In this document: piece by piece, positions 9,482-12,430 of the stretch
How the letters are laid out: each line of letters begins with the position of its first letter
How positions within the stretch are numbered: position 1 is the first letter of the stretch
DNA from: Opitutus sp. GAS368
GTDB lineage: Bacteria; Verrucomicrobiota; Verrucomicrobiia; Opitutales; Opitutaceae
Direction of reading: 5' to 3'
Assembly (NCBI GenBank): GCA_945903545.1
Contig: CAMDOO010000021.1
Coordinates: 1 to 43,343, forward strand
Length of the DNA stretch: 43,343 bases
Made by a program: the position numbers and the translations under genes
Notes under the pieces: model-generated
Databases searched by the model: none
What the model was told of the DNA's origin: nothing
What the model saw: only the letters and a program-made list of their open reading frames with translations

Positions 9482-10397
9482 GAAAGGTCCACGCCGCGAT
9501 CCGGCTTTGTTTCTGGCCGGCAAAGAGAGGCAGGATGCGGAAATCTGTCGGCCTCGCCTTGGCCAGGGCGCGCTCGATCGCCGGGAGGTTGCCGCGCTTC
9601 GAGACCAAGGTGGTGAACCAGGTGCAGAGGCCGGCCTGCGCCGCGCTTTCGGTGATCATCCGGCGCACGAAGGCGAGTTCACCGCCCTCGCACCACAGCT
9701 CATGGCTGCGTCCGCCGAAATTGAGGGCAGGCCGAGCAACCTTCCGCTCGCCGCCAAGATTGCGGAGCTTGCGGAGCGAGCCCTCCGCGGCTTCCGCCGC
9801 CGAGGCATGGAAGGGCGGGTTGCAGAGCGAGAGCGCGAAGGTTTCCCCCGGGGCCGCGACGTGCGCGAAGATCGATCCGGCCGAGGTCTGCCGGCGAATC
9901 TCGATCCGGTCCGCCAGACCGGGATTGGCGGTAACGTTGCGGCGCGCGGCGGCGACCGCCACGGGATCGATCTCGGTGCCGACAAAACTCCAGCCATAAA
10001 GCTGGGTGCCCAGCAGGGGGTAGACGCAGTTCGCCCCTGTCCCGATATCGAGCACCCGCACGGTCGGACCCCGCGGGATCTCGCCGCCGTCCGCCAGCAG
10101 ATCGGCCACCGCATGCAGCGCATCGGCCCGGCTGGGAATAGGCGGACAGAGGTAACCGTCGGGAATTTCCCAATGCCCGATGCCGTAGTGCAGTTTCAGC
10201 AGGGCCCGGTTGAGCTCCCGCACCGCGGAGGGATTGGCAAAGTCGATGGTCTCACCGGACACCGGATGCGGCCGGATGTGCTCCCGGAGCCCGGGACAGG
10301 CGCCCACCAGCCGCACAAAGTCGTACGGCGCCCGGTGCACATTGCGCGGGTGCAGCAGTCCCTGCGTGTGATTCGGTGTTTTGCCCGGCAGTCTCAC
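9447..10397 (-). CDS. rlmF: 23S rRNA (adenine1618-N6)-methyltransferase RlmF
   Basis: 316 aa. RlmF methylates A1618 of 23S rRNA with SAM. The SAM-binding motif [15 protein letters not shown] (115-129) and the target-base motif NPPFH (193-197) are both present. N-terminal [12 protein letters not shown] and [19 protein letters not shown] are family signatures. The last eleven residues, [11 protein letters not shown], and the TAA stop are encoded by dispersed repeat C1, so the original C-terminus appears to have been replaced just after the conserved AAWTF. The gene starts 4 nt inside the 3' end of the upstream tgt fusion gene (ATGA-type overlap), so the two RNA-modification genes are coupled. 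Confidence 0.93.
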
Positions 10398-12430
10398 TTT
10401 GCGCCAAACTGCGGATGAGCGAGGAAGCGTTGCTCGAAGGTGGCGCGGTCGGCTTCCGGCAGGCCCGGCGGGTACTTTGAGCCGCTGCGTTTCCAGCGGG
10501 CGAGCCAGTCAGCGCCCAGGAGGCGAGGGGAGGTGGAAGAGCCATGCATGGCGACCGCCCGGCTGTAGGCCACGGTCGTGGTTGCCTTGGGCCCGGTGCC
10601 GACACCTTCCGCGACATGGAACCCGGCGACAAGGAGAGCGACCCGCACTGCCGTGGCGGCCGAGTAGGTGTAAAGCTCCGCGGGGCGCGGCTGGCACTGG
10701 CGGTGGATGCGCGCAAAGACCTCGGTCTGCCAAAGTGCCGTATCGGTCTTGGACGAAAACGGATCGTAAAAGATCAGGTCCGGCGCCGGCGCGGCTTCCA
10801 GGTGCTCGAGGAAATCACCCGGCAGCAGGCGCCACTCGATCCGGCCGGAGGCATGCGCCCAGCGGCCTGCCTTGAGCAAAGCCTGGGGCGCGGCATGACG
10901 CAGATGCGGGAACCAGGCCGCGTGGCGCGCCGCAAGGATCAAGGGATCGAGGTCGCACTCGAAACTGACGATCTGCAGCGGTCGTGGTCCGACCGGGCCC
11001 GAGGCGGCGAGGCCACGCTCGGCGCACTGGAGCGCGGCCATCGCGTTGGACGCGGCGCCGAGGCCGACGTCCCAGATCACCAACGGCTGTTCATCGGTTT
11101 CACTTTCGCGCCGCAACCGCGCGGAGAGGCGGGACTGCTCGATGTAGAGACGATTGGCCTCATCGGCCGGAGCGGAGACGGAGTGCATGACCTCGCCGGA
11201 ACTGATCTGGCGGATGCTGGAGACGCCTCCGATGGAGGTCTGCATCTCGTAGTCGCCGAGCTGGGGCGGGCGCCGGACCTTGGCCTTGGCGGGATGCACC
11301 GGCGGGTTGTCGGCATCATCCCGGGCCAGCTCGAAGCGGTGGCTCTCGTAGTAGTCCAGGAAGGTCCCGGCGAGGATGGCGGCGCGCATCTCGGCCATGA
11401 GCCGGTGGTAGAACGCGAGGTTGTGCGTGGCAAGCAGCTGCCAGCCGAGGACCTCGTCAGACTTGACCAGGTGGTGCAGGTAGGCCCGCGGGTGGTTCCG
11501 GCAGGTGGTGCAGTCGCACTCGGCGTCGAGCGGCTCCTCGGAGAGCTTGTACACCGAGCGGCGGAAATGAATCTTGCCGTGGGAGGTGAAGGCCGTGCCG
11601 CGCTGGGCGAGCTGGGTGGGAATGATGCAGTCGAACATGTCCACGCCGCGGTGCACGGACTCAAGGATGTCGATCGGTGTGCCGACGCCCATGAGGTAGC
11701 GCGGCAGGTCCCGGGGCAGATGATCGGTCGTGTGGGCCGTGAAATCGTAGCGCTGGGCATGGGTTTCGCCCACGGCGAGCCCGCCAATCGCGAGCCCATC
11801 GAAGGGCAGGGCGCGCAGGAACTCGGCACTGCGGGTCCGGAGGTCGCGGTGACAGGCGCCCTGCACAATGCCGAAGAGGGCCTGCGGCGAATCCCCCCGG
11901 GCGCGCAGCGAGCGTTCCGCCCAGCGGTGGGTGAGGTGCATCGCGGCTTCGGTCTCGGCGTGGCCCGCGGTCGAGGGGATGCATTGGTCGAGCACCATCA
12001 TGATGTCGCTTCCAATCAGGCGCTGCATCTCGATCGACGTCTCAGGGGAAAGGAAATGCTCCTCGCCGTCCACATAGCTGCGGAAGCGCGCGCCGGCCTC
12101 GGTCATGACCCGCGAGTCCGGAAGGGAGAAAATCTGGAATCCACCCGAGTCGGTGAGCACGGGGCCGTCCCAGTTCATGAACCGGTGGATGCCGCCGAAC
12201 TTCTTGAACACCTCGGGTCCCGGCCGGAGCAGCAAGTGGTAGGTGTTGGCGAGGAGCACCTGGGCGCCAACCGATTTCAGCACCTCGACGGTCGAGTTCT
12301 TGACCGTGGCCTGGGTGCCGACCGGCATGAACACCGGGGTGAGCACTTCGCCATGACCGGTCCGGAAGCGCGCCGCGCGGGCCTTGGAGCCGGGAGCTTC
12401 TTTTTCGAGGGTGAAGGCGAGGCGGGACAT
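10394..12430 (-). CDS. tgt: Queuine tRNA-ribosyltransferase (Tgt) fused to an MnmD-like tRNA methyltransferase
   Basis: 678 aa from the ATG at 12430. Residues 1-380 are a complete bacterial Tgt: general acid/base Asp94 in [10 protein letters not shown], nucleophile Asp267 in [12 protein letters not shown], and zinc ligands Cys305, Cys307, Cys310 and His336. It exchanges G34 for the queuosine precursor in tRNAs with GUN anticodons. Residues about 395-630 add a second enzyme resembling MnmD, the methyltransferase half of MnmC that finishes mnm5s2U34. It has SAM motif [17 protein letters not shown] (451-467), [17 protein letters not shown] (551-567), and [19 protein letters not shown] with a [10 protein letters not shown] tail. 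Tgt alone is about 375 aa, so this is a true in-frame fusion of two wobble-position enzymes. The upstream 19 codons are repeat DNA, hence the start chosen. Confidence 0.9.

Follow-up and report, generated by a model that had tools for sequence, protein, structure and literature searches.

Two families of enzymes that modify the wobble position of transfer RNA (tRNA), base 34, are the closest described systems to the gene considered here. The substrates of Tgt have U33-G34-U35 in common, and residues Cys158 and Val233 distinguish the bacterial from the eukaryotic type of the enzyme (PMC3660597, partial text). Arg286 of Tgt is located near the pockets for ribose 34 and phosphate 35 (PMC5395182, partial text). 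MnmC, a flavin adenine dinucleotide (FAD) oxidase joined to an MnmC2 methyltransferase, unites two wobble-34 steps in one chain, and in A. aeolicus MnmC2 occurs on its own, with no oxidase attached; within this methyltransferase Asp178 is the proposed base activating the amine of 5-aminomethyluridine (nm5U) and Glu101 contacts the ribose of S-adenosylmethionine (SAM) (PMC3648344, partial text). Here we describe a gene that joins Tgt to a methyltransferase of the MnmC2 type. It lies in contig CAMDOO010000021.1 of Opitutus sp. GAS368 (GCA_945903545.1), the whole 43,343 nucleotides of which are referred to below as the window. This second Tgt, fused to a methyltransferase, is carried by some bacteria, mostly Opitutaceae, and its two halves may together make an undescribed tRNA base.

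As a pair of domains, Tgt with a methyltransferase is probably visible in domain databases, and methylated preQ1 (preQ1 is 7-aminomethyl-7-deazaguanine) is known from phage DNA. Within the open literature, which leaves most subscription papers outside, we found no description of a fusion of Tgt with MnmC or MnmD or of a Tgt-methyltransferase in Verrucomicrobia (PMC6313347, PMC12506659 and PMC6850298, each in partial text). Within the same bounds there was no description of methylated preQ1 in tRNA or DNA, or of MnmD with preQ1.

Results and Discussion

One reading frame encodes both enzymes

A single frame of 678 residues, free of internal stops, encodes Tgt and then, C-terminally, the methyltransferase (Table 1). 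A first, sequence-only reading of this DNA had placed both in one frame without giving the strand; the frame is as it described and is on the minus strand. Both domains that it named score above their Pfam cut-offs: TGT (PF01702) over residues 16-363 with 487.3 bits (cut-off 26.3) and Methyltransf_30 (PF05430) over residues 506-622 with 59.1 bits (cut-off 22). Of the stricter NCBIfam equivalog models, Q_tRNA_tgt (TIGR00430, cut-off 306.75) is passed at 449 bits, and the tRNA_MNMC2 cut-off of 136 is not reached by the whole protein (74 bits) or by the methyltransferase half alone (76.8 bits).

Is this truly one gene? In a survey of 387 genomes of the phylum, in which detection was based on PF05430 and diverged copies could escape, the fusion is present in 22, the window's own included: 15 in the family, two more in the order, two more in the class and three outside the class. 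These loci are the window's own, L035-L051, L053 and L056-L058, and a complete Tgt is in frame with the methyltransferase at 21/21 phylum loci. A collection of named genomes, the records of which are metagenome-assembled genomes, was searched with the methyltransferase alignment, and among the best 80 of 389 relatives 73 have the same complete arrangement. The remaining seven are three loci cut by the contig end inside the Tgt half (L146, L155, L179), three that start at a contig end (L135, L161, L164) and L190, the only named locus among the 80 with the fusion split over two frames; the fusion of G420 (L117/L121) is likewise frame-split. Uninterrupted fusions are present in genomes assembled as one contig (G088, G140, G274). 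Compared with four relatives by the Nei-Gojobori method, the ratio of nonsynonymous to synonymous substitution (dN/dS) lies between 0.04 and 0.15 in the Tgt half and between 0.14 and 0.22 in the methyltransferase half; by this measure purifying selection acts on both halves.

Because the fused frame recurs across so many loci, including single-contig genomes, and dN/dS is low, the missed frameshift or stop that the sequence-only reading had named as one way in which it might be wrong is very unlikely. An artefact of assembly or annotation that joined two genes could draw on the draft state of the window's genome (122 contigs) and on the frames in two pieces in L190 and G420. It is contradicted by the same frame at the phylum and named loci, by the single-contig genomes and by purifying selection, and its probability is close to nil. 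The fusion is real. Its spread is patchy: within the genus, two further genomes comprise one with the fusion and one without it, the latter 75% complete, and the methyltransferase half was matched in 24 of 115 relatives (own included), 23 of them genuine. The match in G426, weak, partial and interrupted by three stops, was discounted. The residue counts below refer to 94 fusion rows, own included, some of which come from overlapping fetches of one genome.

Table 1. Position of the fusion gene, its parts and the adjoining rlmF in the window
Feature	Positions	Strand	Remarks
tgt-methyltransferase fusion gene, 678 aa	10394..12430	minus	ATG at 12430, TGA 10396-10394
Tgt domain, residues 16-363; the genome's second Tgt	11342..12385	minus	PF01702
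Asp94 (Z. mobilis Asp102), catalytic	12149..12151	minus	invariant in 94/94 fusion rows and 41/41 separate Tgts
Asp267 (Z. mobilis Asp280)	11630..11632	minus	invariant in 94/94 fusion rows and 41/41 separate Tgts
Residues 273-277, Q-L-A-Q-R (R-x-A-R-N in separate Tgts)	11600..11614	minus	alignment
Zinc site Cys305, Cys307, Cys310, His336	11423..11518	minus	invariant in 94/94 fusion rows
MnmC2-type SAM methyltransferase half, residues 386-678	10397..11275	minus	PF05430, 3vyw profile match, structural model
Catalytic-Asp loop, residues 556-567	10730..10765	minus	variant of the MnmC2 loop D-x-F-x-P-x-x-N-P-x-x-W
rlmF	9447..10397	minus	GTG start at 10397; 4-nt overlap (GTGA) with the fusion stop

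The fused Tgt is an additional copy

A PF01702 search of 49 genomes found a separate Tgt alongside the fusion in all 22 fusion genomes of the phylum, at contig edges in G098 and G075, and exactly one Tgt match in each of the 27 fusion-free genomes checked, out of 365. Ten further fusion genomes, labelled as Deltaproteobacteria (five), Spirochaetes (one), Riflebacteria (one), Bacteroidetes, Sulfopaludibacter and Akkermansia, have a separate Tgt in every case, bringing the total to 32/32. In the window's genome the fused Tgt and the separate one (L060 6718-7986) share 45% identity. No fusion-type Tgt lacking the methyltransferase was present among the Tgts fetched. Judged by sequence, the fused Tgt is distinct from the housekeeping Tgt and is an additional, separately evolved copy. 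The Spirochaetes-labelled genome G468 also has a third, very divergent and unfused Tgt-like protein (L227).

In a quick tree of the Tgt domain, made from 68 sequences (41 separate Tgts and a subset of 27 from the 94 fusion rows), the fused copies make up one side of a branch with a support of 100 in the SH-like approximate likelihood-ratio test (SH-aLRT) and a stem of 0.83 changes per column. G466, G467, G469, G470 and G472, all labelled Deltaproteobacteria, have separate Tgts that cluster on their own (95), and the fusion Tgts of G466, G467, G470 and G472, of the Riflebacteria-labelled G473 and of G468 nest inside the Opitutaceae-type fusion clade. Because fusion copies labelled with other phyla nest there while separate Tgts group apart, the tree suggests that the fused gene has been transferred horizontally in one piece, seemingly between distant bacteria. 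The phylum labels are the titles of metagenome-assembled genomes and several such copies are on contigs of 10-14 kb, so misbinning is possible; L171 and L198 are fusion copies on longer contigs, of 295 and 209 kb. Phage or plasmid carriage was looked for in the viral_contigs and plasmids collections, which held no fusion relative, an absence that leaves such carriage possible.

The Tgt half keeps the base pocket and changes the anticodon side

Residues are compared by alignment with Zymomonas mobilis Tgt. The numbers of most aligned positions are those we take to be equivalent, and we likewise assume that Asp267 (Asp280) is the nucleophile. The numbers of Cys158, Val233, Ala232, Glu235, Asp102 and Arg286 are backed by the literature, in partial texts. 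The sequence-only reading had called the Tgt complete on the strength of Asp94, Asp267, Cys305, Cys307, Cys310 and His336, and this is borne out: all are present and none varies in any fusion row. Asp148, Cys150, Gln190, Gly217, Leu218, Ala219, Val220, Glu222 and Met247 are equally invariant (94/94), and with Cys150 and Val220 every fusion keeps the preQ1-type pocket positions Cys158 and Val233. The fold matches that of Z. mobilis TGT (4hqv) over 368 residues with Z 53.2 and a root-mean-square deviation (rmsd) of 1.7 Å. The likeness to bacterial Tgt covers, beyond the fold, the catalytic aspartate pair, the preQ1-type pocket and the zinc site.

The differences, besides the status of an extra copy and the C-terminal methyltransferase, are replaced residues, among them two arginines on the side facing the anticodon. 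All 41 separate Tgts have Arg at both the Arg286 and Arg289 positions. In the fusions the Arg286 position (residue 273) is never Arg (Q 89, S 2, K 2, A 1) and the Arg289 position (residue 276) seldom is (Q 86, R 3, K 2, G 2, H 1). The position of Glu157 is Gln in 91 of the 94 fusions as against Glu in 40 of the 41 separate Tgts, and that of Asn290 is also consistently replaced in the fusions.

Given a base pocket of the bacterial, preQ1 kind, the Tgt half would be expected to exchange guanine 34 for preQ1. Its targets would be expected to differ from the usual tRNAs with a UGU loop (anticodons GUN), or to reach beyond them, because two conserved arginines of the anticodon side are replaced. 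The same replacements could instead point to a Tgt half that now acts away from wobble G34, at another position or on another RNA, or that inserts some base different from preQ1, with the methyltransferase acting on the product or on a neighbouring group. The long stem to the fusion Tgt clade and the consistency of the replacements at the positions of Arg286, Arg289, Asn290 and Glu157 would suit such a change. We nevertheless think it unlikely, given the unchanged base pocket and catalytic residues, the bacterial TGT fold along the whole domain (Z 53) and the passing of the Q_tRNA_tgt equivalog cut-off.

The separate Tgts have peculiarities of their own. Their zinc cysteines are often missing, with Cys at the first position in 14/41, the second in 14/41 and the third in 29/41, and the window genome's own separate Tgt reads LANYTA at this stretch; the fused Tgts keep them all. 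The Ala232 position is Ser in 35 of the 41. In Z. mobilis the Ala232Ser variant has an approximately 100-fold lower kcat (PMC3660597, partial text). The separate Tgts with this Ser may compensate elsewhere.

The methyltransferase half has the MnmC2 fold and another catalytic loop

The sequence-only reading had likened the C-terminal half to MnmD, the methyltransferase half of MnmC, and the Methyltransf_30 match is now joined by agreement with 3vyw in profile and in structure. The profile of the C-terminal half, METHYLTRANSFERASE, built from 25 halves (22 fused and three unfused), has MnmC2/MnmC as its only matches in the PDB, five distinct sequences with 3vyw at E 8.4e-17. A structural model of this half (predicted local distance difference test, pLDDT, 91.7; predicted template modelling score, pTM, 0.91) superposes on 3vyw, A. 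aeolicus MnmC2, over 240 residues with Z 24.0 and rmsd 2.9 Å. Other MnmC entries come next (Z 22.8-19.7), 3ps9 and 3awi being among the MnmC halves that share the fold. They are followed by polyamine aminopropyltransferases at 18.4 and below. Could the half, in the manner of spermidine synthase, use SAM or decarboxylated SAM to place an aminopropyl or some other group, in place of a methyl, on the amine of preQ1? These next-best structural matches are what such a reading would build on. With MnmC2/MnmC at the top structurally (Z 24.0-19.7) and alone among the PDB profile matches, and with the MnmC2 model matching 25/25 members of alignment A1 at E 1e-3, we regard it as very improbable.

The likeness to MnmC2 extends to the active site. 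Of the 94 fusion rows, 92 retain the catalytic Asp (E. coli Asp178) and the other two are frame-split; the SAM-ribose Glu (Glu101) is Glu in 91 and Asp in three; a GE..H segment is common to 3vyw and the fused half. The differences are an identity of only 20-23% in the structural alignments, the NCBIfam score below its cut-off, a Tgt as the partner in place of the FAD oxidase of MnmC, with the methyltransferase placed C-terminally, and the loop that follows the catalytic Asp. This loop reads D-x-[FY]-S-x-K in 92/94 fusion rows (two frame-split), S-x-K-T-D standing where MnmC2/MnmD has its NP loop. The MnmC2 loop D-x-F-x-P-x-x-N-P-x-x-W is found in 0/94 fusion rows (two frame-split), with the N-P pair in none.

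Among the sequences fetched, the methyltransferase half is closest to three MnmD-like proteins from the same class, L052, L054 and L055 (33-36% identity). They differ from the fused half in being unfused, in keeping the NP loop and in coming from genomes with one Tgt each. In a tree of 22 fusion rows, three unfused proteins and 26 ordinary MnmC2 sequences the fusions are one group (96) with the three as its sister, for which the tool gave a warning on long branches.

On this basis the methyltransferase half could move the methyl group of SAM to the aminomethyl nitrogen of the inserted base, giving N-methyl-preQ1 at position 34. This substrate is proposed because MnmC2 acts on a base-34 aminomethyl group, that of nm5U34, and preQ1 carries the same group.

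A coupled pathway or two independent enzymes

Taken together, the two halves are best read as a dedicated two-step wobble-base enzyme that would first place preQ1 at position 34 in a changed set of tRNAs and then N-methylate it, a reading to which we give a probability of roughly 40%. Housekeeping Tgt and QueA would meanwhile continue queuosine synthesis in the ordinary tRNAs; QueA was found in 40/40 genomes, with or without the fusion (22/22 fusion genomes). More tentative is the fuller proposal of a mobile bifunctional enzyme making N-methyl-preQ1 (7-methylaminomethyl-7-deazaguanosine) at G34 beyond or outside the queuosine tRNA set. We infer all the functional steps of this coupled pathway from sequence comparison. 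It is the simplest account because the fusion is never the sole Tgt in the genomes checked, the preQ1 pocket is kept, and both the RNA-facing arginines and the methyltransferase loop are altered.

The sequence-only reading had instead joined two ordinary wobble enzymes that work on different tRNAs. On this view the Tgt half acts on G34 of GUN tRNAs and the methyltransferase half converts nm5U34 to mnm5U34 (5-methylaminomethyluridine) elsewhere, one chain providing shared tRNA binding or co-regulation. The identities of its two domains stand, and it gains from the membership of the methyltransferase in the MnmC2 family, from the A. aeolicus MnmC2 that stands alone (PMC3648344, partial text), and from the search for other mnm genes that had been proposed with it. 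MnmG, which could supply the substrate, is present in 40/40 genomes, and in 20 of the 22 phylum fusion genomes no gene of the MnmM family was found and no strong PF05430 match besides the fusion, so that the fused methyltransferase could be their nm5U enzyme. The search also found an MnmM-family gene beside the fusion in G102 and G298 and an ordinary MnmD-type gene in G468, and this coexistence in three fusion genomes goes the other way. The idea is further weakened, though not refuted, by the separate Tgt in 32/32 and QueA in 22/22 fusion genomes, by the replaced arginine pair, by a methyltransferase loop unlike that of ordinary MnmC2, and by the lack of any fusion-type Tgt without the methyltransferase among those fetched. 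We consider it unlikely. Weak second PF05430 matches occur in G000, the window's genome, and in G274; the former, on contig C4, was rejected as an MnmC, with 70 bits for Spermine_synth and 25 for Methyltransf_30.

Several observations weigh against the coupled preQ1-methylation pathway. Plain synthesis of mnm5U by the fusion is possible, because MnmG is universal in the 40 genomes and 20/22 phylum fusion genomes have no other strong match to an nm5U-type methyltransferase. The methyltransferase substrate is predicted from chemistry and position, and the NP pair of the loop is not absolute: the strict motif is present in just 24 of 30 ordinary MnmC loci, and the ordinary MnmD-type protein of G468 has N without P. 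The supply of preQ1 does not discriminate, with QueF in 21/22 and strong QueC in 21/22 fusion genomes and in 15/18 and 14/18 fusion-free genomes, respectively; the fusion genome G322 has no QueF and a weak QueC. In a structural model of the whole fusion the relative placement of the domains is uncertain (pTM 0.59). That Arg286 and Arg289 read the bases adjoining G34, and so have a role in UGU recognition, is our assumption. A literature search on their role in tRNA recognition gave only the placement of Arg286 (PMC5395182, partial text).

Some of these genes have unusual forms. The fusion genome G274 has three QueC-family matches on its contig C1 (E 1.3e-62, 9.2e-58 and 1.6e-31), and QueA of the window's genome (G000:C64:1330-2574) has two matched stretches in one 456-aa frame, with an apparent insertion in the middle. 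In the window's family, G339 has a gene (L231 274-1950) that combines an FAD oxidoreductase (DAO) with a methyltransferase of the MnmM family (PF06962), and PF06962 frames of similar length are found in G223 (L232) and G310, the frames being 551-559 aa. Such a fusion of DAO with the MnmM family would be another way to build a bifunctional enzyme like MnmC.

Neighbouring genes

The gene that follows the fusion is rlmF, matching Pfam Methyltransf_10 and NCBIfam RlmF (386.4 bits, cut-off 302). The sequence-only reading had taken the 4-nt overlap as the mark of an RNA-modification operon. The overlap is there and the description holds locally, but not as a conserved unit: same-strand adjacency occurs at 0/21 phylum loci and 1/80 named loci, with at least 1.2 kb downstream available for this check at 20 of the 21 and 69 of the 80. 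The gene pair is present in the window's genome and one other (L123, also fetched as L098), and at L145 rlmF is approximately 4.3 kb away on the opposite strand. We therefore rejected a conserved rlmF operon; rlmF is a local neighbour, outside any conserved unit with the fusion. A search for other conserved neighbours, leaving aside frames that overlap the fusion gene, gave no open-frame cluster at more than 17 of 88 loci. At L139, the one representative examined, genes for a PhyH dioxygenase, a fucosidase-like protein and an epimerase surround the fusion, and no RNA-modification gene. Divergently upstream in the window, positions 12617-16572 on the plus strand encode FAD amine-oxidase-family, enoyl-ACP-reductase-like and KAS III-like proteins (Pfam), a set that may belong to a lipid or polyene cluster.

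Conclusions

Tgt is normally single-copy in the genomes checked and has a fixed target in the anticodon loop (PMC3660597, partial text). The fusion represents a second Tgt lineage, coupled to an amine methyltransferase, in which the chemistry of base exchange is kept and the residues facing the anticodon are changed. If the coupled reading is true, tRNA should contain a nucleoside of preQ1 + 14 Da, which our searches did not find described, and a 7-deazaguanine should occupy the wobble position of a new set of tRNAs. Even the plainer reading of two independent enzymes would still give a new way of joining two wobble-modification pathways in one protein.

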